A stretch of DNA of 64,000 nt from contig NZ_CP113432.1 of the NCBI RefSeq assembly GCF_026686735.1, positions 248,001 through 312,000 of the forward strand. Direction: 5' to 3'. This document shows positions 2-64,000 of this stretch, one piece after another (positions within the stretch are counted from its first letter, which is position 1; each line of letters opens with the position of its first letter). A program made the translations under genes and the position numbers. A model generated the notes under the pieces. The model was not told the origin of the DNA, searched no databases, and saw only the letters and a program-made list of their open reading frames with translations. The DNA comes from Pseudomonas triclosanedens. Its GTDB lineage: Bacteria > Pseudomonadota > Gammaproteobacteria > Pseudomonadales > Pseudomonadaceae.

Positions 2-1003
2 GGCGGTTCGCTGGTGTCCACCAACCGCAATCTCGATCTGGCCATTTCCGGCGGCGGCTTCTTCGTGGTCAAGGGTGGCAATGGCGACGTGCAGTACACC
101 CGCGCCGGCGTCTTCGGCCAGGACAAGAGCAACTTCCTGATCAACGCCACCGGCCAGCGCCTGCAAGGCTATCCGACCGACGCCGCCGGCAACCTGCTGG
201 TGGGCACCGTGTCCGACCTGCAGGTGAAGACCGCCAACCTGCCGGCCAAGGCCACCGACAAGCTGGAGTTCGTCGCCAACCTCGACTCCAACGAGAAGAC
301 CCCGAGCGTCGGCCCGTTCGATCCGCAGAACGTCGCCACCTACAACTCCACCTACACCAGCAAGATCTACGACTCCCAGGGCAAGGAACACACCCTGACC
401 CAGTACTTCGTGCTGACCTCCACCAACAACTGGGATGCCCACTATTACGTCGACGGCAACGCCGTGGGCGCCACCCAGGGCCTGCAGTTCGCGCCGAATG
501 GCTCGCTGGCCTCGCCGATCGCCGCCGTGCCGGTGAACTTCACCCTGCCGGGCGTCGACCCGATGAGCATTTCGCTGGACTACACCGGCACCAGCCAGTA
601 CGGCTCGGACTTCGTGGTCACCACCAACCGCACCACCGGCTATGCCGCCGGCGAGCAGACCGGCATCGCGGTGGAGAACGACGGCAAGGTCTACGTCAAC
701 TACAGCAACGGCCAGCGCATGCTGCAGGGCCAGGTTGCGCTGGCGAACTTCATCAACGTCGGCGGGCTGCAGAACGAGAGCGGCACCGCCTGGAGCGAGA
801 CCTCCGCCTCCGGCACCCCGCTGGTTGGCGTTCCCGGCATCGGCCAGTTCGGCAGTCTCTCGGCGGGCAACCTGGAAGGTTCCAACGTCGACATCACCCA
901 GCAACTGGTGGGCCTGATGGAAGGCCAGCGCAACTACCAGGCCAACACCAAGGTGATGACCACCGACAAGGAACTCACCCAGGTGCTGTTCGCAGCGATC
1001 TGA
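2..1003 (+). CDS. flgE: Flagellar hook protein FlgE, 5' truncated by window
   Basis: This is the C-terminal ~333 residues of the hook protein, the polymer that forms the universal joint outside the outer membrane. The reading frame is open from base 2, so the true start lies before the window. The visible part begins in the conserved N-terminal region of the family (STNRNLDLAISGGGFFVV) and ends with the typical axial-protein C-terminal helix (LEGSNVDITQQLVGLMEGQRNYQANTK). It is followed 12 bp later by flgF, in the usual flgEFGH order. The neighbouring lafK-type regulator and gene order assign it to a secondary (lateral) flagellum rather than the polar one; that assignment is an inference. Confidence 0.95.
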   Translation, partial: GGSLVSTNRNLDLAISGGGFFVVKGGNGDVQYTRAGVFGQDKSNFLINATGQRLQGYPTDAAGNLLVGTVSDLQVKTANLPAKATDKLEFVANLDSNEKTPSVGPFDPQNVATYNSTYTSKIYDSQGKEHTLTQYFVLTSTNNWDAHYYVDGNAVGATQGLQFAPNGSLASPIAAVPVNFTLPGVDPMSISLDYTGTSQYGSDFVVTTNRTTGYAAGEQTGIAVENDGKVYVNYSNGQRMLQGQVALANFINVGGLQNESGTAWSETSASGTPLVGVPGIGQFGSLSAGNLEGSNVDITQQLVGLMEGQRNYQANTKVMTTDKELTQVLFAAI

Positions 1004-50736: not shown

Positions 50737-50915
50737 TTGGCTGGCGATGGTAATGCCCCAATTGGCAGATTACCCGTAGCAGCCTGCCGTACAAGAGCAG
50801 CGGATACTGCTCCACCTCATTTATCCGCACTCGGTGCAAACCCAGAAATTGTCGGTCAATGTCCCTTTCTGACGCTGGTCTGCTACCCCCCCCTCGTATA
50901 TGCAGTGCGGTCTTC

Positions 50916-52016
50916 ATGGCCAGCGCTGCACTTCCTTCAGGACAGTTGCCCGCGCTGCTGGCGCGAGGCTGTACAGAGTCATCGGACATGGATCTCCAAG
51001 GTCATCTGCTTTACATCGACATCACCCAGATTTGTGGAATCGGCTGTGCCTTCTGTATGTACGCCGACAAGCACAAGGCGGGCATCAGCATGGAGCTATC
51101 AACGTTGGCGCGGGAAAACCTCGCCCGGTTGATCAATGCCCCAGAGGTCAAGCGCATCTCCGTCAGTGGCGAAGGCGAGCCGCTCAACAACGCCAAAGTG
51201 TTCCACGAGATCCTCGGATTGTCCGAAGGTGGCAAGTGCTTCGAATTCATCACTAGTGGGTTCTACCCACATGACAAGATGGCGGACTTCTATGACGCCA
51301 CCAATCGCATCGTCTCGGGCAATGGCGACACCTGCAACATCCGCCTGAGCGCCGACAGCCACCATATCGAGAAGGTCAAATGGCGGGCTCATGGTTTTAG
51401 TCTGGACTATCTGAGGCGCCGGAGACCGTCGGGACTGAGCTTCTCGTTCCGCTCGATCGACACCGATCGCGACTTCACTCGCGAGTATCTGAAGTCCGAG
51501 CTGGCTTGCTGGGGAGTAGAGGCAACCATCGAGCCGCGGAGTGTTCTGGAAGACGTCTTGGTTGCGGGTGGTGAGTGCTTCGGCATCGACTACAAGAACC
51601 TGGTGCACCCCGCTCCTGGAACCGCCCCGGGTTATCTAGACATGCAGGGGTACATCGAGGCGATCGAGTCCAAAGTCAACAAACGCTTCACTTTCGGCAG
51701 TCTGAACAAGCCGCCGCAGGCTAACGGTTTGGATGTCACGGTGAAGCCTAGTGGTGACTTGTACTTGTACGGTATCGAGAACCAGCGCCTAGGCAACATC
51801 CACTTTGATCGGGTCGACTGGCAACGGCTGGTCGCCCACGTGCGGGAGACACCGTTGACCCGAGCACTCTATACGCAACCCTTGACCGAGTTGCTGGCGC
51901 GCCTGGAGAGCACCGACCTGCTGCGTTCGATCATTGCCAAGGCGAACAACCCCTACTGGCTGGTGAAGGAGCTGGCAGGTCATGCCGGGTTGCTCGAACA
52001 ATGGGAGGTTGCATGA
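50916..52016 (+). CDS. Radical SAM enzyme of unknown specificity
   Basis: A 366-residue protein (if started at ATG 50916; 50859 and 50988 are alternatives, none with a strong Shine-Dalgarno). The radical SAM cluster motif CxxxCxxC is at C40, C44 and C47 (YIDITQICGIGCAFCMY), with a GEGEP-like segment (ISVSGEGEPLNN) for SAM binding. No SPASM-type second cysteine cluster is visible in the C-terminal part. Its stop overlaps the PHP gene ATG. The substrate is unknown; the neighbours suggest a small-molecule or nucleotide-derived product. Confidence 0.85.
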   Translation: MASAALPSGQLPALLARGCTESSDMDLQGHLLYIDITQICGIGCAFCMYADKHKAGISMELSTLARENLARLINAPEVKRISVSGEGEPLNNAKVFHEILGLSEGGKCFEFITSGFYPHDKMADFYDATNRIVSGNGDTCNIRLSADSHHIEKVKWRAHGFSLDYLRRRRPSGLSFSFRSIDTDRDFTREYLKSELACWGVEATIEPRSVLEDVLVAGGECFGIDYKNLVHPAPGTAPGYLDMQGYIEAIESKVNKRFTFGSLNKPPQANGLDVTVKPSGDLYLYGIENQRLGNIHFDRVDWQRLVAHVRETPLTRALYTQPLTELLARLESTDLLRSIIAKANNPYWLVKELAGHAGLLEQWEVA

Positions 52017-52879
52017 TCGACTCACACAGCCACACCTCTTATTCGAAGCATGCAACCGGCACCGTCGATGAATTGGTTCGCGCCTCAATCGCTGCCGGCG
52101 TGACCATCCTAACCATCACCGACCACGCGCCATTCCCCGTGGATACGGACAATCGTCTGCTCGCGTCCGAACTTGATCGCTATTTCGCCGACATCGAGCG
52201 GGCACGGAAGATCTACCAGGGGCAGATCACCATCCTGTGCGGCCTGGAGCTCGACTACATGCCTGGCACCGATGCCTTCAATCGCGAGCTGCTTACTCGT
52301 TACCCGATGGACTTCGTAATCGGCTCGATTCATTACGTGGAAACTCCAGACGAAACCATGGTGAAGGTATGGGAGCTGCCGCGCCTGGCCGGGCAGGCGT
52401 TCCTGGACCGCTACTTCGCCAACCTCGAAGGGCTGTTGGACAGTGGGCTGTTCGATGCCGTAGGGCACGCCGACACTCTGCTGCGTGGCGTACCGGAAGA
52501 CATCTTCCTGCGCCGTTTCGAGCCTTTGCTGGCACCGCTCGCCCGAAGCGGTATTGCCTTCGAGCTCAATGCCTCAGGCCTTCGAAAGTCGAGCCTGGAT
52601 CCTGCAACGGGGAGGGAGGTTCAGGGCTTGTGGTCTTATCCGTCTCGGGAATTGGTGGCGCAGCTCATCGCACACGAAGTGCCCTTCACTGTTGGGTCCG
52701 ATACCCATGACCCGAGTGACGCCGGCTCTGGCATTGCCGAGCTGCTCACGGCCCTGCGGCCTTTGGGGCTGAAACGCATTAGTTACTACGAGAGGCGCCG
52801 ACGAATCGATGTTGCCCTCGACAGCCTGCCGTTGCTGGGCACACCAGCAACTTTGACAGAAGGACTTGAACGGCCTTGA
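52013..52879 (+). CDS. PHP-domain phosphoesterase (histidinol-phosphatase-like)
   Basis: A 288-residue PHP-family metal-dependent phosphoesterase. The HxH motif (IDSHSHTSYS) is at the very N-terminus, then TITDHAPFP, GSIHYVE, GHADTLLRG and GSDTHDP follow in the order of the trinuclear metal site. It is close to histidinol phosphatase HisK-type enzymes in layout but not in a histidine operon. The GGGAGG Shine-Dalgarno is strong. The stop overlaps an in-frame TTG of the next gene. Confidence 0.9.
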   Translation: MIDSHSHTSYSKHATGTVDELVRASIAAGVTILTITDHAPFPVDTDNRLLASELDRYFADIERARKIYQGQITILCGLELDYMPGTDAFNRELLTRYPMDFVIGSIHYVETPDETMVKVWELPRLAGQAFLDRYFANLEGLLDSGLFDAVGHADTLLRGVPEDIFLRRFEPLLAPLARSGIAFELNASGLRKSSLDPATGREVQGLWSYPSRELVAQLIAHEVPFTVGSDTHDPSDAGSGIAELLTALRPLGLKRISYYERRRRIDVALDSLPLLGTPATLTEGLERP

Positions 52880-52881
52880 AC

Positions 52882-54006
52882 ATGATGACCCCCGGAAAAT
52901 CACTGCTTTGGTCCGAGGTGCTTAAGAGGCCGGTTGATGTCCAATTGGCAATGTTTCGTCAGGCTTCCGCTCAGCCCTATGCTGATGATGTGAAAACTGG
53001 TTTCCGCGCGTTCGCCGCCGACCTGTTTTCACGCGAACTGGTCAGCATGACCGAGTATGTTTCGATTTTCGGCGGCACTGCCCTGAACTGCCTTACACCT
53101 GCCGAGTCGGGGTTGTTTCGAGACATGGCCACGGGCAACGATGCCACGGTACTGGCCGGGATCTACAGCCGTGCAAAATACGGCAGTGTGGGTGACATCC
53201 GGTATCTCGCACGACAACTGATCGACTACCTCTGCCGCGAGCTGGATAGGCCAGACTCGCAATGGTCATACCTGTTCCGGAACGCTAAGGCGTGTGGTGA
53301 CAACGTGGTGATGATGACCACCGGTTGGCGTAACGTGCCTTCCACGGCGAACGTGCTCTATGAGATCGTGGTAGAGGAAATAAACGTCAAACTAGCGCAT
53401 ATGGCGTTGCCTACCATCATCAACGTCAAGCTGCCCAGGATTGCGCCACCTTGTGAGGACTACGCCAGCCTCAGCACCGAGGAGCGCGAGCGGGTCAATC
53501 TGGTTCAGGATCACGTCATTCCGGCTGAAAATTTCTATCGTTGGAGCGGTGTGCATGTGATCTTCGGCGACGATGTGCTGGTTACCGGATCTACTGCCGA
53601 CAAAGTGCTTTATGAATCCATGCGTAACGGTGCAAAGTCGTTCCGCGCAATCTATCCGGTGGCGATCGATCCCCGAGTGGCCTTGGGCGATGCCTCGGTC
53701 GAGGATCGGCTGAATAGTGTGGTGGTCGAGCAACGACTGGACGATACCGTTGCGGAGTTGCTGTCTGCGCGGGACTACCAACCTATCTTGCGCACCCTGC
53801 GCCTGTTGTTCGGGGAGGGCAACCGAGAGTCACTCGCCGCTTTCCTACCGAAGGTGCCTGCGCCGACCTGGCTGCGCCTGTACAAGTCTGCCTTGGGTAA
53901 TGAGTTTCTAGGCCAGGCGCAATGTGTTCCTTCCTTGGTGTTGCTCAGGGAATACCTGACAAAAGCTGGGATGCTGAGTACCGATGGCAGGTCAATTCAC
54001 CAGTGA
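52882..54006 (+). CDS. Phosphoribosyltransferase-domain protein
   Basis: A 374-residue protein. The PRPP-binding signature of type I PRTases is at residues about 226-238 (VIFGDDVLVTGST), preceded by β-strands with INVKLPR and followed by RAIYPVAIDP. The N-terminal ~130 residues and the C-terminal ~110 are unassigned helical regions. A start at TTG 52876, overlapping the PHP stop, is also possible and is nearer the AGGA site. It would transfer a ribose-5-phosphate group onto, or remove it from, a base or ring; the real substrate is unknown. Confidence 0.75.
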   Translation: MMTPGKSLLWSEVLKRPVDVQLAMFRQASAQPYADDVKTGFRAFAADLFSRELVSMTEYVSIFGGTALNCLTPAESGLFRDMATGNDATVLAGIYSRAKYGSVGDIRYLARQLIDYLCRELDRPDSQWSYLFRNAKACGDNVVMMTTGWRNVPSTANVLYEIVVEEINVKLAHMALPTIINVKLPRIAPPCEDYASLSTEERERVNLVQDHVIPAENFYRWSGVHVIFGDDVLVTGSTADKVLYESMRNGAKSFRAIYPVAIDPRVALGDASVEDRLNSVVVEQRLDDTVAELLSARDYQPILRTLRLLFGEGNRESLAAFLPKVPAPTWLRLYKSALGNEFLGQAQCVPSLVLLREYLTKAGMLSTDGRSIHQ

Positions 54007-54803
54007 ACAGCTGCCTTCATGGTTCCGTGCGATATGTGAGCTATTGGGAGAATGCTCCTGGGCAGGTCATGCCGGCCTATGTCGCGCTGGCATTGGTCTC
54101 GATGCGTAGAACCCTGGGTGAGCGCTTTCTGTTGCTTACACCGCGGACGGTCTTGGACCTGATCGACCCACGAGTCCTTGGTAAAACATGGGGCTTTGAA
54201 CCATTGCCATTCACTCTGGCAGAGGGAATTGAGGCCATCGTTGCCAAGAGCGACTTCATCCGCATGGCCTTCGTCCATCGACATGGCGGCGCGTGGGTGG
54301 ATGCGGACACGCTGTTCTTGCGCGACCCAACCAGCGCGCTGTTTCCCGCAGGCCTCAGTCATAAGCTGCATTGGCATAGTGAATGTATTTTTGCTTCCCA
54401 GCCGGGTAACCCCTTGCTTGCACGGGCGTTGGCTACAGGTCTGGACGGAGGTGCCCATGCCTGGGGTAATCCCGGCCGTATCAAGGACATCGTGGCGCAG
54501 GCAGATGACGAACTGGTGCTTATTGCTGGAGATGTCATCGACCCCGGCTACCGTCCACGGTACAACTTCGCTAGCTGCGAGGTGATGCGTCGTCAGGATG
54601 TGAGTGTCGCTGACTTCCTACTGACAGATGCAACCATGCTCAAGCTCTACAACACCTACTTCCGGCGTACGGCCAAGCGCATGGAGTCTGTTGCAGAGTT
54701 TCTTGCTGGCGGCACCTTGCTAGCCAAGTTGTTCCTGCACATCGAGGCCGACCTTGGTTATTGGCTGGGGGAGAGCGAGCGGCTGATGGAGGCCGTTTCT
54801 TGA
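54003..54803 (+). CDS. DxD glycosyltransferase (GT32/capsular-type), GTG start
   Basis: A 266-residue protein. The glycosyltransferase core with a DxD metal/sugar-nucleotide motif is clear: AKSDFIRMAFVHRHGGAWVDADTLFL (DAD near residue 97), the pattern of the OCH1/capsular polysaccharide transferases. The GTG at 54003 overlaps the PRTase stop (GTGA), like other junctions in this cluster. The last 46 bp overlap the end of the convergent GT9 gene. Confidence 0.78.
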   Translation: MNSCLHGSVRYVSYWENAPGQVMPAYVALALVSMRRTLGERFLLLTPRTVLDLIDPRVLGKTWGFEPLPFTLAEGIEAIVAKSDFIRMAFVHRHGGAWVDADTLFLRDPTSALFPAGLSHKLHWHSECIFASQPGNPLLARALATGLDGGAHAWGNPGRIKDIVAQADDELVLIAGDVIDPGYRPRYNFASCEVMRRQDVSVADFLLTDATMLKLYNTYFRRTAKRMESVAEFLAGGTLLAKLFLHIEADLGYWLGESERLMEAVS

Positions 54804-56287
54804 TCTGGGCATGCCAGTGTTACGGCGCTTGCGCGTAGATGAAGTCGGCACTCACGGACCTCGCTCAGGTTTAGCTGCCGAGAAATCACCTCATGGACGG
54901 TCGGTGTGCAACGGTGAGGCGAACCATGGGCAACGTACAACCATGCGGCTACGCGCGCTGGTAACTGGTCGAACTCGAGCTCAACTCGCACTAGGTCGAA
55001 TACTTCTGTTGTCCGTCCGCTCGGGGTCCAGGCGAGCGGAGCGGTGCGATAGTCAGGCTGCGCCACCACTAAAGGGGAGTCGAGCTCCAAATTTATGGTT
55101 CCAGGGTGACAGTCGGCGACTTCGGGGAAGCCCTGGCTGATCAGCGGCAGTTGGCGAGCGAGAGTTCCCTTCGCAACACCTAGACCAGGCACTATCCGCG
55201 CTTTGAGCGAAAGGTAGTGGTCAGGTTCTGGCGCAGTGGCCAACAGCTCGTGGAGATTGTCGAGCAGAGCCTTGAGCGAGAATGCATTCATGTCCTTTTT
55301 CCCTGTGCGACGATATTGTCCAGGGTCTTGCCGGCTATAGATCACACGGGTCAACGGAGAGGATGGAGGCAGCCACGGGTTGGCTTGTCCATCCATGGCT
55401 GGGTAGATTGCCACCAGCCTTGTTTCCAGGCCGACCGCCATGTGTACGATTGCTGTATCGACACTGATCACGGCTTGCGTACAACGGATGTACCCAGTGA
55501 CGTCCTTGGGCGATAACAGTCCATGGACGACGCGGACGTTTCTTCGCGCCACGGTGATTTCCATGTGCTGCGCGTCCTCCAGTGTCGCGGGGCTGCACAG
55601 GATACCGACAGACCGGGCAGGGTAAGCATCGGCGATAGCACGCAGCAAGCTCACTGATCGATCGAAGGTCAAGCACTTGTCTGGCCGGCTGGCGTAGGGG
55701 TTGAACAGGATGTACGGGATTTGGGAAGAGGGTGGCAGCGCGTCGGGAAGGGGGACGATGTACTTCTTCTCGACCCGGCCTGCACCTAGGTCCATGAGCA
55801 CGCGTCGGTAGCGCTCAGCCACGTCCAGCCCGGCTGTCGCTGCACCGAACTTGCGATTGACGCAGCGTAAACGGTCGTCGAGGGAATACACCCGAACTGG
55901 GCGCAGCAGTCGTAGGAACAGGATTTCCGCAGGTTGAATCCTCCCGACCAGATGGACCACCACATCGACTCGCCCAAGCTGCGGTGCCAGTCGGCGGAGT
56001 TCGCGGACTCCGGGATTGGCTTTGGTGATCACGACCTGATCCACCGCAAAATCCAGCGTGTGCATCTGGGCAAGCTCTGCGACCGTCAACACGGTCACCC
56101 GGGCATTGAGCTTGCGCACCTCGCGAAAGAAGAAAGACGAAACGATCGAGTCGCCCAGCTTGGCATCCCATCGAGGGACAAGTATGTGCAGGATTCCTTC
56201 CGTGGCTCTGGGAGAAAGCGACCTGTCAGCCAATAAGCGAAACGCCGCTCGTGCGCATGCTTTGCGCGCATCCCGCAGGAATGACAT
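54758..56287 (-). CDS. GT9 (heptosyltransferase-like) protein fused to a riboflavin-kinase (DUF120)-like domain
   Basis: A 509-residue two-part protein. Residues about 30-355 have the GT9 layout: HILVPRWDAKLGDSIVSSFFFREVRK at the start, then VHGLLSPKDVTGYIRCTQAVISVDTAIVHMAVGLETRLVAIY. Residues about 362-490 follow the pattern of CTP-dependent (archaeal-type) riboflavin kinase: ARIVPGLGVAKG, then CHPGTINLELD, then WLYVAHGSPHRCTPTVHEVI and LNLSEVRECRLHL. Start at ATG 56287; a TTG at 56335 is possible. It is convergent with the glycosyltransferase gene and probably acts in the same pathway. Confidence 0.68.
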   Translation of the reverse strand: MSFLRDARKACARAAFRLLADRSLSPRATEGILHILVPRWDAKLGDSIVSSFFFREVRKLNARVTVLTVAELAQMHTLDFAVDQVVITKANPGVRELRRLAPQLGRVDVVVHLVGRIQPAEILFLRLLRPVRVYSLDDRLRCVNRKFGAATAGLDVAERYRRVLMDLGAGRVEKKYIVPLPDALPPSSQIPYILFNPYASRPDKCLTFDRSVSLLRAIADAYPARSVGILCSPATLEDAQHMEITVARRNVRVVHGLLSPKDVTGYIRCTQAVISVDTAIVHMAVGLETRLVAIYPAMDGQANPWLPPSSPLTRVIYSRQDPGQYRRTGKKDMNAFSLKALLDNLHELLATAPEPDHYLSLKARIVPGLGVAKGTLARQLPLISQGFPEVADCHPGTINLELDSPLVVAQPDYRTAPLAWTPSGRTTEVFDLVRVELEFDQLPARVAAWLYVAHGSPHRCTPTVHEVISRQLNLSEVRECRLHLRASAVTLACPDQETASISRSLSPSQ

Positions 56288-56755
56288 GTTGCTCAAACGC
56301 TCGATTTTCGGTGAGGCCTGGGGCAAGTAGCGCAACTTACCGGGCTCTCAATGTAGTAGCCATGCAGGCGGTTGCTGATTTTCGGCCAGGTTGCCCTGCC
56401 CTGGCTTTCTGCTTCAAATCCAACGTTTGCACTCCATGGCGGACTCCTTGACGCGGCATAGCTTGCTGCCAGCCTGTTGCGAGCATGCCAGTGGGGTGGG
56501 CAAACTGCCAGTAGTGAAGGCCGCGTGTTGGCTAATCGTGCGCCTTCGGCGGCGCCCTCCGCTGCATTGACGTACTTGCCTGCTACCGAGGAGCTGTATG
56601 AGCTTCACCAGAAGCCGACGCTGTGGCTCTGCTCAGCCGACGGCGTACAACGACCCCACAGGGTCGATGGTTTACTATTCGAGACGCGAATCGCAGCACA
56701 ATTTACTCCTGTCTGGTACCGACCAGGGGCATGAGTGGGGAGTACAGGGACAGTG
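56288..56755. other. Divergent intergenic region before the CARF regulator
   Basis: 468 bp between the GT9 gene and the CARF/sigma-54 activator. Open frames here are short, overlapping and without motifs. It must hold the promoters of both genes; none was recognised. Confidence 0.45.
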
Positions 56756-58234
56756 TTGAAGAGGCAGCGCGCATTGACTTGCTGGGTGGGCGGGAACGAT
56801 CTCAAAGCTGTTAACGACAGCGAGGTCGGGCCGATTTTGTCGACCCTGCGGGCTGCGTCCTTTGATCGTGTCGAGCTGCTTTGTTCTTACCCTGTCGAGC
56901 GGGTTGAGCCCTATCTGGCATGGTTGCGCGAGCGTGTCGATATACCGGTCGAGGCTCATTACGAATCTCTGAGCTCCCCAGTCCACTTCGGGGAAATCTA
57001 CCAGGCCGCCAACAAGCATCTGGAGCGCTTGTCCGCTTCCCGTGCCGATCTTTCGATTCTGCTCAGCCCAGGCACGCCTGCCATGCAGGCCGTGTGGATT
57101 CTTCTCGGCAAGACTCGCTATCCGGCCACTTTCTACCAATCCTCCCTCGAGCAGGGCGTACAGCAGGTTGAGGTACCATTCGAGATAGCCGCCGAGTACG
57201 TGCCCGCCGCCAATGGCATCACCAGCGACAAGCTACTGGAGCTGGCAGGACAGGACGTTCCCGTCAACGCAGCCTTCGACAGCATTGTCACGCAGAGCGA
57301 GCGTATGTTGACGCTTAAGGCTCAAGCGCAGGTCCTGGCACAGAAACAAGTACCGGTGCTGATCTACGGTGAAACCGGTACTGGCAAAGAGCTATTTGCC
57401 AGGGCTATCCACAACGCCGGTCCACGTTCTGCTGGCCCCTTCATTGCGGTCAACTGCGGGGCGATTGCGCCTGAACTCATCGACTCCACTCTATTTGGCC
57501 ATAGAAAAGGTGCTTTCACCGGTGCGGTGGAGAATCGAGATGGGGTGTTCCAGCAAGCGCATGGCGGCACGCTGTTTCTGGATGAATTTGGTGAGCTGAA
57601 GCCGGACGTGCAGGTTCGCCTATTGCGAGTCCTCCAGGGAGGCACGCTCACGCCGGTTGGAGGCAGCCAGGAGTTAAAGGTCGACGTGCGGCTGATTACG
57701 GCTACCCACCGAAATCTGATGCAGGAAGTGGCTCTGGGGCGTTTCCGCGAGGACTTGTTCTATCGGATAGCTGTCGGAGTTCTTCATCTGCCGCCTCTGC
57801 GGGAACGTGAGGGGGATCTGCTCCTGCTGGCAGATGCGCTGCTTGAAAGCCTCGCTGAGCAAGATTCCTCGCTAGCTGGTAAGAAAATTTCCGCTGAAGC
57901 AAAAAAACTTATTCTGAAACATCCCTGGCGTGGCAATGTCCGGGAGCTTCAGTCCACATTGCTTCGAGCTGCGCTGTGGTGCCAGGGAAGTGCAATCGGT
58001 GCGGCGGATATTGAACAGGCGCTGTTTCAACTTCCGCAGGAACAAGCCGACATCATGGCGCGGGATGTTGCACAAGGTATTGATTTGCAAGAGGTAGTTG
58101 CTGAGGTTGCAGGGCATTACCTGCACAAGGCACTCACTCTCACCGGGCACAACAAGACTCGCGCTGCCAGCCTGTTGGGCCTTAAAAGCCAGCAAACGCT
58201 GAGCAATTGGATGGACAAATACGGCATCGAATAA
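56756..58234 (+). CDS. RtcR-like CARF-domain sigma-54 activator
   Basis: A 492-residue EBP. The N-terminal ~170 residues follow the CARF sensor of RtcR: VHFGEIYQAANKHLERLSAS, then ILLSPGTPAMQAVWILLGKTRYPATFYQSS, where RtcR has an equivalent TTGTHVAQ...LPARLIQSS run. The AAA+ domain has Walker A GETGTGKE (about 204), GAFTGA (about 252) and FLDEFGEL. The C-terminal HTH is HNKTRAASLLGLKSQQTLSNWM. RtcR CARF domains sense RNA-end or nucleotide signals. The start is uncertain: TTG 56756 has AGGGA 5 bases upstream; GTG 56735 is an alternative. It ends just before a sigma-54 promoter. Confidence 0.85.
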   Translation: MKRQRALTCWVGGNDLKAVNDSEVGPILSTLRAASFDRVELLCSYPVERVEPYLAWLRERVDIPVEAHYESLSSPVHFGEIYQAANKHLERLSASRADLSILLSPGTPAMQAVWILLGKTRYPATFYQSSLEQGVQQVEVPFEIAAEYVPAANGITSDKLLELAGQDVPVNAAFDSIVTQSERMLTLKAQAQVLAQKQVPVLIYGETGTGKELFARAIHNAGPRSAGPFIAVNCGAIAPELIDSTLFGHRKGAFTGAVENRDGVFQQAHGGTLFLDEFGELKPDVQVRLLRVLQGGTLTPVGGSQELKVDVRLITATHRNLMQEVALGRFREDLFYRIAVGVLHLPPLREREGDLLLLADALLESLAEQDSSLAGKKISAEAKKLILKHPWRGNVRELQSTLLRAALWCQGSAIGAADIEQALFQLPQEQADIMARDVAQGIDLQEVVAEVAGHYLHKALTLTGHNKTRAASLLGLKSQQTLSNWMDKYGIE

Positions 58235-58238
58235 AAAC

Positions 58239-58256
58239 TTGGCACGGTCCTCGCTG
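58239..58256 (+). promoter_or_regulatory. Sigma-54 (-24/-12) promoter of the type I restriction operon
   Basis: TTGGCACGGTCCTCGCTG matches the consensus TTGGCACG-N4-TTGC with one mismatch (TCGC). GG is at 58241-58242 and GC at 58253-58254, exactly ten bases apart. The predicted start of transcription is about 58266, at the very beginning of hsdR. It lies 5 bp after the stop codon of the CARF EBP, which is its likely activator. Confidence 0.85.
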
Positions 58257-58266
58257 TAGGACTGGC

Positions 58267-61200
58267 ATGGACAAAATCGCCTATATGAAATCAGCCAACT
58301 TCGAATTCCTTCGCTCCGGCAACGAGTTGCTGGTAAACCTCGCGGGCCTGGCCGAAGCCGTATTGTTTATTGACCCGGGCAGCGCGCTGACTCGTCTGCG
58401 CAGCTTTGCCGAAGAGCTGACCAAGGCCATCTACAAGGAAGAGCTGCTGCCGCGCATGCCGCAGTCGACCTTCTACGATCTGGTGAAAAACCCTGTGTTT
58501 GTCGATTGCGTCAGCAAGCCTCTGGTTCATCAGATCAACTTTCTGCGTATTCAGGGCAACGACACCGCCCATGGTGCCGAAGGTGATCTGCGCAACGCAC
58601 AGTTGGCGCTGAAGACTGCTCACCAACTGGCCATGTACATGGCCATCAAGTACTACGGCACTGCGCAGGCTGATATTCCGCCCTTTGCCGAGGTGCAGGA
58701 TCCGACAGCAGCGTTGGCCAGCCTGCAGAAGACGGTTTCCAGCTACGAGAAGGAGCTCAACCAGCAGCAGGAAGAGCTTCAACGTGTCATGGACAAGCTG
58801 GAGCAGGAGCGCACCCGCAATCTCGACAAGCTGGAGCCGCCGGCCAAGCCTGACCAGCAAAAGCGCCAGCAACAGAGCCAGAAGGTTGCCGATAGCCTGC
58901 AATGGAACGAGGCCAAGACTCGTACCCTGCTGATCGATGCCATGCTTCTGCAGGCCGGCTGGGATGTCAGCAACCCCGCTCAGGTCGGTCAGGAGGTGGA
59001 GGTCGACTTCCCGGATAACACCTCTGGCAAGGGGCGTGCGGATTACGTGCTATGGGGTGATAACGGCCAGCCGCTGGCCGTAATCGAAGCCAAGAAATCC
59101 GGCAATGTCAGCCTGCAGGCCGGGCGCGAACAGGCCCGCATGTACGCCGACGGCTTCGAACGCATGGGCATGCAACGCCCGGTGATCTTCTACAGCAACG
59201 GCTACGAAACCTTCATCTGGGACGACCAGCAATACAACACCTACCGCCCCGTCTACGGCCTCTACAGCAAGGACAGCCTCGAATACCTGATCTACCAGCG
59301 CCAGTACCGCATTGCCGAGGTTGAAAAGTACAACCCCGAGCTGAGCATTGCTGATCGCCCCTACCAGATCGAAGCGATCAAGACTGTCGCCGCGCACTTC
59401 CAAAAGCAGCGCCGCAAGGCCCTGATCATCCAGGCCACAGGCACCGGCAAAACCCGTGTGGCCATCGCCCTGGCCGAGCTGCTTCTGCGCACCAGTTGGG
59501 CCAAGCGCGTATTGTTCCTGTGTGATCGCAAGGAGCTGCGCGTACAGGCCGATGATGCCTTCAAGCAGAACCTGCCCAGCGAGCCGCGCTGCGTGATTGG
59601 CGAAACCAACAAAGTCGACCGGACCGCGCGCATCTATATCGCCACCTACCCGGGCATGATGAACCGCTTCGCCCAGCTTGACGTGGGCTTCTTCGACCTG
59701 ATCGTTGCCGACGAAAGCCACCGCAGCATCTACAACAAGTACCGCGACCTGTTCGACTACTTCGATGCGTTGCAGGTGGGCCTGACCGCCACCCCGGTGA
59801 AGTTCATCAGCCGCAACACCTTCGACATGTTCGACTGTGAAACCACCGACCCCACCTTCGAGTTCGGCCTGGATGCCGCCATCAACAACGAGCCGCCCTA
59901 CCTGGTGCCGTTCCGCGTACGCGACCTCACCACCGATTTTCTGCGCGATGGCATCCACTACAACGACCTGAGCGATGAGCAGAAGCGCCAACTCGAAGAA
60001 GATCTCGGTGAAGAGGAGGCCAAGCGCACCACCATCGCTGGCAAGGACATCGGCCGCAAGATCTTCAGTGAAGACACCGACCGCATCATCCTGGAAAACC
60101 TGATCAACAACGGCATCAAGGACGAAACCGGCTCGCTGGTCGGCAAGACCATCATTTTTGCCCAGCGCCAGGATCATGCCGAGCACCTGGAAAAGCTCTT
60201 CTGCAAGCTCTATCCGCAGTATGGCACCAAGGTCTGCAAGGTTATCCACAATGCCATTCCGCACGTGGACACCCTGATCAAGGAATTCAAGAAGCCGGAT
60301 AACGACTTCCGCATCGCCATCTCGGTGGACATGCTCGACACCGGCATCGATGTGCCCGAAGTGGTCAACCTGGTATTCGCCAAGCCGGTTAAGTCCTGGG
60401 TCAAGTTCTGGCAGATGATCGGCCGTGGTACGCGCCTGCGCCCCAACCTGTTCGGCCCAGGCAAGAACAAGAGTGAATTCCTGATCTTCGACCACTACGG
60501 CAACTTCGACTACTTCGAGCAGGAGTATCAGGAGCCGGAGGACACTGGCGGCAAATCCCTCCTGCAAACCACCTTCGAGGCGCGCGTGGAGCTGGCACAG
60601 GCGGCGCTCAAGCACAACCATGCAGCCGCCTTCGATACCGCCATCGAGCTACTGCGGGCGGACATCAATGACCTGCCGGACACCAGCGTGGCCGTGAAAC
60701 GCGAGCTGCGAGTCGTGCATCAGTTGCAGCAAACCGTGCTGCTGAAACAGTTCGATGCCAAAACCCAGCACCTGCTGACGGACAGTATCGCCCCGCTGAT
60801 GTCGGCCCGGGTGCTGCGCGACAAACATGCCACCGCGCTGGACAAGCTGATCGCAGGCATTCAACGCTGCCTGGTCGAGCAGGCCAGTTGCTTTGAGGAT
60901 GGCAAGATCACTCTGCTGGCCGAAGTGGACAAGCTCGCCGTTAACATCCAGGCCGTTCGCCAGAAGGATGCCATGATCGCTGAGGTACGCAGCGCCGAGT
61001 TCTGGCAACAACCCAGCATCGGCAAGCTGGAACATGCCCGCCAAGAACTGCGCGGCATCATGAAGTACCGGCAGACCGACATCGGGCCTGGCTATGGCAT
61101 AGACACCACACGAACCACGGATGGCAACGTCCAGGGCGAAGAGCGTGTGGTGTATATCGCCGGCGCCAACGAGGCGATGATCTACCGCCGCCGCCTCAAG

Positions 61201-61665
61201 GACATTCTTGACGGTATGCTGGCCGTCAATCCAACTCTGCAGAAAATCCACAAGGGCGAGCCGATTGCCGAGCCAGAACTGAAGACGCTCACCTCGACCA
61301 TCCTCACCAGCCATCCGGGCTTTAGCCTGGACGTGCTCAACGAGTTCTACGGCCGTGCGGCCGATCAGCTGCATCTCACCGTGCGAGAGATCATTGGCCT
61401 GGATGCGCAAGCCATCGAGGAGCATTTCAAGAGTTTCCTTCATGCCCATCCCAGCCTGACCGCCCAGCAGGTTCGCTTCATGAACCTGCTGAAGAATTAC
61501 ATCGCTCAGCACGGCAGCATCGTTGTGGAAAAGCTCTACGAACCGCCGTTCGCCAATATTTCCCACGAGGGTATCGACGGCGTCTTCGCCCCTGAGGATG
61601 TCAGCGAGTTGGTCGCCGTGCTTAAGCCTTTCCTGCGCGGGGATGCCTCGCCAAGCAGTCACTAG
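58267..61665 (+). CDS. hsdR: Type I restriction enzyme HsdR-like subunit with DUF4145-type N-terminus
   Basis: A 1132-residue protein (ATG 58267; ATG 58285 is an alternative). Residues about 7-130 are a DUF4145-like helical domain, then a coiled coil (about 140-220), then an HSDR_N nuclease domain with GRADYVLW and VIEAKKSG (about 255-280, the PD-(D/E)xK site). The SF2 motor has Walker A TGTGKT (about 390) and DESH (about 481), and the EcoEI-type C-terminal domain follows. It cuts unmodified DNA after translocation by the HsdRMS complex. It is the first gene after the sigma-54 promoter. Confidence 0.93.
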   Translation: MDKIAYMKSANFEFLRSGNELLVNLAGLAEAVLFIDPGSALTRLRSFAEELTKAIYKEELLPRMPQSTFYDLVKNPVFVDCVSKPLVHQINFLRIQGNDTAHGAEGDLRNAQLALKTAHQLAMYMAIKYYGTAQADIPPFAEVQDPTAALASLQKTVSSYEKELNQQQEELQRVMDKLEQERTRNLDKLEPPAKPDQQKRQQQSQKVADSLQWNEAKTRTLLIDAMLLQAGWDVSNPAQVGQEVEVDFPDNTSGKGRADYVLWGDNGQPLAVIEAKKSGNVSLQAGREQARMYADGFERMGMQRPVIFYSNGYETFIWDDQQYNTYRPVYGLYSKDSLEYLIYQRQYRIAEVEKYNPELSIADRPYQIEAIKTVAAHFQKQRRKALIIQATGTGKTRVAIALAELLLRTSWAKRVLFLCDRKELRVQADDAFKQNLPSEPRCVIGETNKVDRTARIYIATYPGMMNRFAQLDVGFFDLIVADESHRSIYNKYRDLFDYFDALQVGLTATPVKFISRNTFDMFDCETTDPTFEFGLDAAINNEPPYLVPFRVRDLTTDFLRDGIHYNDLSDEQKRQLEEDLGEEEAKRTTIAGKDIGRKIFSEDTDRIILENLINNGIKDETGSLVGKTIIFAQRQDHAEHLEKLFCKLYPQYGTKVCKVIHNAIPHVDTLIKEFKKPDNDFRIAISVDMLDTGIDVPEVVNLVFAKPVKSWVKFWQMIGRGTRLRPNLFGPGKNKSEFLIFDHYGNFDYFEQEYQEPEDTGGKSLLQTTFEARVELAQAALKHNHAAAFDTAIELLRADINDLPDTSVAVKRELRVVHQLQQTVLLKQFDAKTQHLLTDSIAPLMSARVLRDKHATALDKLIAGIQRCLVEQASCFEDGKITLLAEVDKLAVNIQAVRQKDAMIAEVRSAEFWQQPSIGKLEHARQELRGIMKYRQTDIGPGYGIDTTRTTDGNVQGEERVVYIAGANEAMIYRRRLKDILDGMLAVNPTLQKIHKGEPIAEPELKTLTSTILTSHPGFSLDVLNEFYGRAADQLHLTVREIIGLDAQAIEEHFKSFLHAHPSLTAQQVRFMNLLKNYIAQHGSIVVEKLYEPPFANISHEGIDGVFAPEDVSELVAVLKPFLRGDASPSSH

Positions 61666-61673
61666 GAGTGATC

Positions 61674-63803
61674 ATGCAAGCCAGCCAATGGACGACAGAA
61701 ACCATCGTGATCTGCGGGGTGCTCGCTATCGCCGCCGCGCTTATCGGCTACGTGATCGCCGCCCTGCGCCAGGGAAGGCAGATCAGCCAGCTCAGCATGC
61801 AGCTTGAGCAAGCAGAGCAGGCCAGGGCGTCGACTGAGACTCAGCAGCAATCTCTGCAGATTCAGCTCAAGGCAGCAGAAGCACGCAGCCATGAGCTGCA
61901 GATCGAAGAGGGCAAGCTGAAGGCGCAGTTGCAAGCATCGGCCGATACCGCGGCACGTTTTTCTACGGAGCTGCATGAGCGTAAAGCGGCCGGATCAGAC
62001 TTGCAGGTGAAACTGGACGAAGCTACCCGGCAACATCACGAGGCCGCCAAGCGTCTGGAGGCTGTACAGGCTGGCGCCCGGGGGCTCCAGGATCAGGTGA
62101 CCGAATTGCGCCAGCGCCTCGACACCTCGACAACGACAAATGCTGCGTTGCAAGAGGAGCGTGACTCCCTCAAGGATGCCTTGGCGACTGAGGAAACTCG
62201 CGCGAAGGTGGCGGAAACCGCCGAGCGTGAAGCTCGCGAACAGCTCAACGAGATCAAGCAAAAGCTGGTCGAGCATGCACAGGCATTCGACGCTTTGCAG
62301 GCGCGTTATCAGTCGACGAGCAATGAGCATGCAGAGCTGGGGACCGCTCTGGACAAGAGCGAGAAGCAAGTGGCCGAGCTACGAGAGCGCCTGGCTCAGG
62401 CTCAAGCCACAAATGAACAGCTACACACGGATCGTGACCGTCTGAAAGACGGACTGGCGGATGAAGGCAAACGGGCCAAGGCCCTGGAAACTGCCGAGCG
62501 CGATGTGCGAAACCAACTTCTTGAAACCAAGGAAGCGCTTTCTCAGCAAGTACGATCGTTCAACGAGCTGCAGGAGCGCCTGAACGTACTTTCGTCTGAG
62601 CACACCGAACTCAAGACCACCTTGCAGAAGCGCGAGGAGCATTTCCAGGAACAGATGGCGCAGTTGGCCGACACCCGCAAGTCGCTGACCCAGGAATTTG
62701 AAAACCTGGCCAACAAGATTTTCGAGGAGAAGGGCAAGACCTTCACCCAGGCCAGCCAGACCAGTATCGATGGGATGCTCAAGCCTTTCCGCGAGCAGAT
62801 AGAAGGCTTCCAGAAGCGCATCAACGAAGTTCATGATGCCTCGCTGCAAGGCAACACCAGCCTTAATGCCGAAATCAGGAAGGTGCTGGAAATCGGCCTG
62901 CAGATGAGCAAAGAGGCCAATAATCTGACCTCGGCCCTCAAGGGTGACTCCCAGCAGCGCGGCGCCTGGGGTGAGGCACAACTGCGTCGCACGCTGGAAA
63001 TGAGCGGCCTGATCGAAGAGGCGCACTACGAAGTGCAGAGCGCCTTCAAGGATGCCGAAGGCCGTTCCAGGCAGACCGACTACCTGATCAAGCTGCCCGA
63101 CGGCAAACACATCATCATCGACAGCAAGGTTTCGCTGGTTGCATACGACCGCGCCGTGGCCGCCGAGTCTACGGAAGAATGCCAACTGGCGATGGCTGAG
63201 CACGTCAAAGCCGTACGCAAGCACATCGACGACCTTGCCTCCAAGGACTACACCAACCTCGTCGGTATGCGCAGCCCCAGCTTCGTGCTGATGTTCATGC
63301 CCATCGAGCCGGCTTACATCGAGGCCATGAAGCACAACAAGGACCTGTTCGAGTACGGCTACAAGAAAGGCATCGTGCTGGTCTCGCACACCACCCTGAT
63401 TCCCATTCTGCGTACCGTCTCCAACCTCTGGATGATCGAGCGCAGCAACGCCGAAGCGCGGGAAATCAGCGAGAAGGCGGGCGAGATCTACAACCAGGTC
63501 TGCACCGTGGCCGAGCGCCTCGGCAAGCTGGGCGGCACTCTCAACACCGTCAGCAACCACTACAACGACACCGTCAAGGCGCTGGCTGGCAAGCAAGGCC
63601 TCTACGGAAAGGTGGAGCGCTTCAACAAGCTCTCGGCCAAGGTCAGCAAGACCCTGCCAGCGCTGGAGCCCACCCACATGGACTTCGAGAGCGAGCGGCT
63701 CGCGCTGATCGTAGAGGCGCTCGAGGAAGCGCCGGAGCCAGCCGACGATCTGCCGCAACTGATCCAGAACCGTCACGAAGGCGAGCTGCTACCGCAGGCC
63801 TGA
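61674..63803 (+). CDS. rmuC: RmuC-family DNA recombination protein inside the hsd operon
   Basis: A 709-residue protein with an N-terminal membrane anchor (residues about 10-30: TIVICGVLAIAAALIGYVIAAL), very long coiled coils to about 390 and the RmuC domain at about 400-690 (GAWGEAQLRRTLEMSGLIE, YLIKLPDGKHIIIDSKVSLVAYDRAV, FVLMFMPIEPAYIEAM). RmuC proteins are PD-(D/E)xK-like nuclease-fold proteins that limit DNA inversions. The coiled coil is longer than in typical RmuC (~475 residues total). AGGAG lies just before the ATG, overlapping the hsdR end. Placement between hsdR and hsdM suggests a role in the restriction system. Confidence 0.9.
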   Translation: MQASQWTTETIVICGVLAIAAALIGYVIAALRQGRQISQLSMQLEQAEQARASTETQQQSLQIQLKAAEARSHELQIEEGKLKAQLQASADTAARFSTELHERKAAGSDLQVKLDEATRQHHEAAKRLEAVQAGARGLQDQVTELRQRLDTSTTTNAALQEERDSLKDALATEETRAKVAETAEREAREQLNEIKQKLVEHAQAFDALQARYQSTSNEHAELGTALDKSEKQVAELRERLAQAQATNEQLHTDRDRLKDGLADEGKRAKALETAERDVRNQLLETKEALSQQVRSFNELQERLNVLSSEHTELKTTLQKREEHFQEQMAQLADTRKSLTQEFENLANKIFEEKGKTFTQASQTSIDGMLKPFREQIEGFQKRINEVHDASLQGNTSLNAEIRKVLEIGLQMSKEANNLTSALKGDSQQRGAWGEAQLRRTLEMSGLIEEAHYEVQSAFKDAEGRSRQTDYLIKLPDGKHIIIDSKVSLVAYDRAVAAESTEECQLAMAEHVKAVRKHIDDLASKDYTNLVGMRSPSFVLMFMPIEPAYIEAMKHNKDLFEYGYKKGIVLVSHTTLIPILRTVSNLWMIERSNAEAREISEKAGEIYNQVCTVAERLGKLGGTLNTVSNHYNDTVKALAGKQGLYGKVERFNKLSAKVSKTLPALEPTHMDFESERLALIVEALEEAPEPADDLPQLIQNRHEGELLPQA

Positions 63804-63835
63804 CAATCCATTTTTGAACGAGAGAAGTACCCCGA

Positions 63836-64000
63836 ATGCTCACCGGCAAAATCCGCAATGATATCGATAAGCTCTGGGAAAAATTCTGGACTGGCGGCAT
63901 CACCAATCCACTGACCGTGATCGAGCAGATCAGCTACCTGATGTTCGCTCGCATGCTCGACATGCAGGAAGACGTGGCCGAACGCAAAGCCAACCGAACC
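63836..64000 (+). CDS. hsdM: Type I restriction modification subunit HsdM, 3' truncated by window
   Basis: The first 55 codons of an HsdM N-terminal domain: [20 protein letters not shown], then [27 protein letters not shown] lies about 9 bases before the ATG. It is 32 bp after rmuC in the same direction. The methyltransferase motifs and the specificity gene hsdS lie beyond the window. Confidence 0.85.

Follow-up and report, generated by a model that had tools for sequence, protein, structure and literature searches.

A predicted CARF/sigma-54 control region, with candidate elements inside the activator gene, ahead of a type I restriction operon in Pseudomonas triclosanedens

The 64,000-nucleotide stretch analysed here (hereafter the window; Pseudomonas triclosanedens, contig NZ_CP113432.1, positions 248,001 to 312,000, forward strand) ends in the gene of a sigma-54 enhancer-binding protein (EBP) with a predicted CARF domain, followed by a type I restriction-modification (R-M) operon. 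Type I restriction is commonly taken to be constitutive. An earlier note on this DNA had proposed that the CARF sensor places restriction under an RNA-damage or nucleotide alarm. Our analysis makes it likely that the operon is driven from a sigma-54 promoter, activated by the adjacent EBP through an enhancer and an integration host factor (IHF) site inside the EBP gene itself. The features of the locus, in window coordinates, are the following.

56735–58234, + strand: gene of a CARF-AAA+-helix-turn-helix (HTH) sigma-54 EBP of the RtcR_PspF2 family, 499 aa from the mechanical GTG start (an alternative start is possible at 56753)
56753–57178, + strand: modelled CARF sensor domain, six strands, the last two forming a hairpin
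57284–57778, + strand: AAA+ sigma-54 interaction domain (PF00158, 221.6 bits)
57880–57915, + strand: synonymously constrained block within the EBP open reading frame (ORF), candidate upstream activating sequence (UAS, enhancer)
58073–58085, + strand: exact match to the IHF consensus within the EBP ORF, 159 bp upstream of the stop codon
58115–58219, + strand: Fis-type HTH (HTH_8, 19.1 bits, under its Pfam cut-off of 22; helices present in the model)
58239–58255, + strand: sigma-54 -24/-12 promoter TTGGCACGGTCCTCGCT (-24 GG at 58241–58242, -12 GC at 58253–58254)
58245–58264, + strand: inverted repeat CGGTCCT / AGGACTG across the -12 element
58285–61665, + strand: hsdR, the type I restriction subunit gene, probably starting at Met7 of the ORF that opens at 58267
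61668–63803, + strand: RmuC-domain gene (RmuC, 311 bits; N-terminal hydrophobic stretch and coiled coil judged by eye)
63836–64000, + strand: start of hsdM, which runs past the window end

The order hsdR-rmuC-hsdM behind the promoter, as given in the earlier note, was borne out by Pfam and PADLOC, and hsdS follows hsdM outside the window. hsdR, hsdM and hsdS thus lie together as a type I R-M cluster, with the Pfam domains HSDR_N, ResIII and EcoEI_R_C in hsdR, HsdM_N and N6_Mtase in hsdM and Methylase_S in hsdS; the PADLOC REase_I model matched at 1461.6 bits.

The EBP has the architecture of a sigma-54 activator, with Pfam matches to Sigma54_activat, AAA_lid_14 and HTH_8, a GAFTGA loop and a C-terminal HTH. 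The Csm6 CARF family of Pfam matched below threshold (14.8 versus 27.5). Modelling confirmed the N-terminal domain as a CARF fold, with a Rossmann-like core, a hairpin of strands 5 and 6 and the strand-1 and strand-4 motifs of the superfamily. The full-length EBP model used 44 sequences, 22 of them drawn from 120 listed proteins. The PADLOC profile RtcR_PspF2 (CARF_AAA_HTH, PDLC01995) scored 737.2 bits, with EBP residues 11–499 on profile positions 1–481, that is, over its full length. The comparison with RtcR that had been suggested as a check also gave an alignment: CARF residues 64–139 aligned to RtcR (hhalign E 4.9e-7, probability 92.5), and the motif GTxxxQxxW was common to both. The description of the EBP as RtcR-like stands only loosely, since it belongs to a separate family. 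Identity with RtcR was rejected at 324.5 bits against the NCBIfam NF038308 equivalog cut-off of 650, and the single Pfam RtcR match (PF06956) of the genome, a true RtcR, is at 1005735, away from the EBP locus. The EBP family is patchy, with matches in 25/398 Pseudomonadota and 25/398 Pseudomonadaceae genomes (E <= 1e-8, weak and truncated matches included), and members were found on chromosomes and plasmids.

The EBP stop codon ends at 58234 and the promoter begins at 58239; the arrangement is as first described, with a gap of 4 bp where 5 bp had been given. TTGGCACGGTCCTCGCT is one mismatch from the sigma-54 consensus, YTGGCACGRNNNTTGCW, and is the best sigma-54 site of the window on both strands, scoring 23.0 of 24.5 with the runner-up at 21.5, which agrees with the near-consensus promoter of the earlier note. 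The weights were set from the consensus ahead of the scan, and the threshold of 21 was chosen after the scores had been seen. We scanned 100 loci, comprising the window, 45 related loci and 54 from whole-genome searches. A hit was obtained in 98 and none in 2; 21 that were not full length were dropped, and the remaining 77 were reduced to 44 representatives at 90% identity. These relatives are not independent: single linkage at 70% identity joined the 44 into 27 clusters, and the 29 promoter-at-stop representatives into 16.

A promoter scoring at least 21 within -45 to +100 of the EBP stop codon was found in 31 of the 44 representatives, 25 of them at -1 to +5. Applied to 444 ORF ends elsewhere in these loci, which were not dereplicated, the scan gave 7 such sites. 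Lowering the threshold to 20.5 gave 32/44 EBP ends versus 9/444 other ORF ends; before dereplication the promoter was present in 62 of the 77 full-length loci. Among seven other activators of the window's genome, one (L052) had a site of at least 21. The position of the promoter is not due to chance, since the majority of relatives also have it at the EBP stop codon. The promoter is present and conserved, and the EBP is predicted to activate it with RpoN.

Further CARF-EBP genes directly upstream of hsdR, for which the earlier note had asked, were found: by our tally hsdR is the next gene in 27 of the 44 representatives, and 26 of the 27 carry the promoter at the stop codon, the exception being L024. 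This linkage argues against the EBP being a mere neighbour in a defence island that regulates something else, a reading we regard as very improbable. Such islands do shuffle genes, some relatives adjoin other payloads, and in L038, whose EBP is broken by a stop, HsdR is weakly matched (32%) some 7 kb downstream. Yet five truncated EBPs (L045, L046, L139, L140 and L141) had no hsdR match in the downstream sequence examined. EBP residues 1–113 alone are retained in L045, L046, L047, L108–L110, L112 and L113, of which the named members are Stutzerimonas; L139 is a longer stretch of L108.

Upstream of the EBP, the opposite strand carried a site of at least 21 in 7 of the 13 loci that had none at the stop (L033, L034, L039, L044, L079, L081 and L089) versus 1 of the 31 that had one (L031). 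Six loci had neither: L024, L028 (20.5 upstream), L032 (19.5 at the stop), L077, L080 and L107. The gene divergent from the EBP in L033 and L034 encodes an ARPP-1 protein (Pfam) and has the sigma-54 site ahead of it; ARPP-1 may be an unstudied defence payload of divergent family members. L037, L039 and L042 have divergent genes, probably also of ARPP-1 type, that are closely alike at the N-terminus and are preceded by a comparable sigma-54 site.

Synonymous conservation within the EBP gene peaked at codons 1–15 and 381–393, above the 99% permutation level, in 19 close orthologues (P < 0.01). In the 29 deep promoter-at-stop representatives the codon window 384–395 ranked top (P 0.004); none reached significance in the 15 other loci (P 0.25), where the same region came third. 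The Ala389 codon, 330–357 bp ahead of the EBP stop, is GCA in 29/29 promoter-at-stop loci (5.5 expected from their own codon usage) versus 5/15 others (Fisher 1.2e-6, relatedness not corrected). The block motif, which was defined after the sequences had been seen and fitted to the same loci, occurs in at least one member of 15 of the 16 promoter-at-stop clusters; L074 and L060 lack it. Between block and promoter, at 144–159 bp from the stop, 16 of the 29 promoter-at-stop loci carry an exact match to the IHF consensus, which was not fitted (1.4 expected by synonymous resampling), as do 0 of the 15 other representatives; that of the window is the only exact one in its 64 kb. These sites fall in 7 of the 16 clusters, and 13 of the 16 loci belong to the group linked to the window at 60% identity, with L076, L085 and L106 outside it.

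The only out-of-sample test of the block motif was made with five plasmid loci, all that the search found. The promoter, the block and an exact IHF site were present together in all three in which an hsdR start lies behind the EBP, two of the three being close relatives; on the Azotobacter plasmid the hsdR gene is not listed and hsdM is listed in pieces. The other two plasmids carry a VWA-PP2C-kinase payload. The Rhodoferax plasmid has its promoter at -20 and a partial block, and the Polaromonas plasmid has a weaker site (20.0) at +164, ahead of the next gene.

Instead of being an enhancer, the block could mark a promoter within the gene, an RNA element or an effect of codon choice, which we consider rather doubtful but a serious alternative. 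It would accord with the post hoc definition of the motif, with a dyad that is not convincing in divergent loci and with permutation P values that are good, not overwhelming. Against it, the constraint tracks the position of the promoter, as shown by the Ala389 codon and by the 15 other loci, where block windows are not significant, the block decays along with the promoter in L024, and its place upstream of an IHF-consensus site is the order known from sigma-54 promoters.

Several points weigh against control of the operon by the EBP through a block and IHF site in its own gene. L024 carries hsdR and has no promoter at the stop, and its block and IHF site have decayed as well. Thirteen of the 29 promoter-at-stop loci lack an exact IHF site: 12 fall outside the close Pseudomonas-type group, while L007, the thirteenth, stands for 15 loci and has one mismatch. 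A block-like dyad was clear in one and nominal in two of 10 loci with a divergent or upstream promoter, so the block, drawn from sequence constraint, is a candidate enhancer. The Rhodoferax and Polaromonas plasmids have neither the full block motif nor an IHF site. Inducible expression of the operon is a prediction from sequence. Moreover, hsdM lies in the same operon, and inspection of 13 loci by eye showed no conserved hsdM promoter; strict sigma-54 control would therefore leave the chromosome unmethylated before induction. Were the promoter the sole source of transcripts, the alarm would reach cells still unmethylated, and induction could damage the host.

This difficulty could be solved by read-through. 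The operon might be transcribed mainly from the EBP's own promoter, giving basal, constitutive restriction that the sigma-54 promoter only boosts, which we think unlikely on balance. The 4-bp gap leaves no room for a terminator, and hsdM shares the operon and overlaps the preceding stop in L009, L011 and L021. One short conserved element, GGTTTACTAT, was seen upstream of the EBP at 56669–56678; within it TTTACTAT, exact in 16 of 24 close loci with variable flanks, is perhaps the -10 region of the EBP. The conserved sigma-54 promoter and its spacing to hsdR argue that the promoter matters, with basal activity still compatible.

That spacing was measured from the predicted transcription start at about 58266. 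In all 24 promoter-bearing hsdR loci measured (the 26 minus L036 and L060, which have a different HsdR type), hsdR has a conserved start between +16 and +21. The RefSeq hsdR start on the P. luteola plasmid is at +20, the second Met; the annotated start on the Vitreoscilla plasmid, outside the 24-locus set, is at +31. From this geometry hsdR probably begins at 58285, some 19 nt past the transcription start. A mechanical TTG start at 58207 was rejected, and a leaderless mRNA from an ATG at +2/+3 was set aside, this ATG being present in 21/24 and missing from L083, L084 and L085. The inverted repeat CGGTCCT/AGGACTG is kept in 16 aligned Pseudomonas-type loci, with 96% of cells paired and one pair changing on both sides (a GC-GU-AU series). 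Shuffled repeats paired as highly in 26–32 of 500 trials on three of five measures and in 394 and 422 on the remaining two, so the covariation stays a lead. Folding gave weak evidence for an RNA hairpin at the promoter (z -0.8, -0.4 and -1.0; L027, with a different fold, -3.4). It is a speculation, based on the one covarying pair, that in read-through RNA, and there alone, the repeat masks the AGGA ribosome site; this too could resolve the unmethylated-chromosome problem, because basal transcription would then methylate without cutting and the alarm would add the cutter.

Under the favoured reading of sigma-54 control, the CARF domain would keep the AAA+ domain off until a signal is bound, by analogy with RtcR. 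The activated EBP oligomer would bind through its HTH to the candidate enhancer at 57880–57915, and IHF, if it binds at 58073–58085, would loop the EBP onto RpoN polymerase at 58239–58255. Transcription from about 58266 would then cover hsdR, the RmuC-domain gene, hsdM and hsdS. The signal may be a ligand linked to infection or RNA damage. Of the proposal that the sensor controls restriction, the wiring of promoter to hsdR, conserved over large distances, is upheld; an RNA-damage or nucleotide signal and an operon that is off until induced are not established. With a conserved switch of this kind, restriction would become responsive, set off by an alarm within the cell and not by foreign DNA alone.

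The control region may also be portable. Two EBPs, L066 and L068 (L119/L066 and L121/L068), are 95.5% identical and both have the promoter at the stop, while the HsdR-like proteins behind them share 31% identity over 581 residues; the switch stayed and the payload changed. The pair looks like the result of a payload exchanged recently beyond the stop codon. HsdR identity to that of the window is 29–32% in L036, L060 and L068 versus 80–98% in the close Pseudomonas-type group. VWA-kinase sets are the payload in L114, L118 and two plasmids, and L032 carries DUF4007 and a type IIG/DrmMI-like methylase. We tentatively propose, with somewhat less than even confidence, a portable alarm switch, with enhancer and IHF site in the last 360 bp of the EBP gene, the promoter at the stop and, in Pseudomonas, a repeat that may hide the ribosome site. 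One piece of DNA could then confer CARF control on a gene inserted after it.

Upstream of the EBP (window 50859–56335) lie a radical SAM-like protein, its Pfam score just below cut-off, an opposite-strand GT9 glycosyltransferase and one ORF without a Pfam match. Beyond hsdS and an AAA_13 (PDC-S06) gene are AAA, VWA, PP2C, kinase and MkoA-like helicase genes (L002:15258–19899 and L003:1–7264). In the window's genome a three-gene set that includes a tyrosine integrase (L003:10551–17873 and L007:153–7494) is found downstream of the island; in several relatives it is upstream of the EBP. Its occurrence on either side suggests an integrative island.

Whether the arrangement had been published was left open by the earlier note; Makarova 2014 and the 2024 CoCoNuT paper had in fact predicted it. 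Makarova 2014 (PMC4012209) reports a frequent association of RtcR-like CARF-AAA-HTH proteins with R-M systems and regards them as probable sigma-54 activators of downstream genes. These proteins, and PADLOC RtcR_PspF1/2, share with the present EBP the domain architecture, the neighbourhood and the predicted sigma-54 control of restriction; the main-text passages on them give no promoter, IHF-site or enhancer positions. The CoCoNuT paper (PMC11090510) describes Pseudomonas superoperons in which an RtcR homologue precedes a type I R-M system and a transmembrane-coiled-coil-RmuC gene, there named ShdA. The signal it proposes is cyclic-phosphate RNA, and its section on these loci has no mapped promoter. 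Beside them, the present locus has AAA_13, VWA, PP2C, kinase and MkoA-like helicase genes downstream. ShdA of Shield (PMC10270631) is described as having a membrane helix, a coiled coil and an RmuC domain, and the RmuC protein of the window, with a hydrophobic stretch and coiled coil judged by eye, may be ShdA-like; rtcr and hsdr have 0 occurrences in the main text of that paper. The Xylella type I R-M operon XF2724 likewise has an in-silico RpoN site ahead of it in a 2010 table (PMC3224663), and the passage on it mentions no CARF activator. RtcR of rtcBA is also a CARF-AAA+-HTH protein with UAS-IHF-(-24/-12) control, the enhancer, IHF site and promoter having been reported as a set for E. coli rtcBA (PMC9650030); Kotta-Loizou 2022 describes RtcR as repressed by its CARF domain and not activated by oligoadenylates. 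RtcR controls RNA repair, and its HTH region differs by eye from that of the present EBP. Among the open-access papers listed by our searches, judged by title and abstract and supplements aside, we recognised none that maps a CARF/sigma-54 control region for a restriction operon. The pairing of a CARF activator with R-M is thus already known, and the control switch inside the EBP gene appears to be the new detail: its mapped sites turn the 2014 prediction into a directly testable one, and the locus offers a read-out for seeking the ligand of a non-CRISPR CARF domain.

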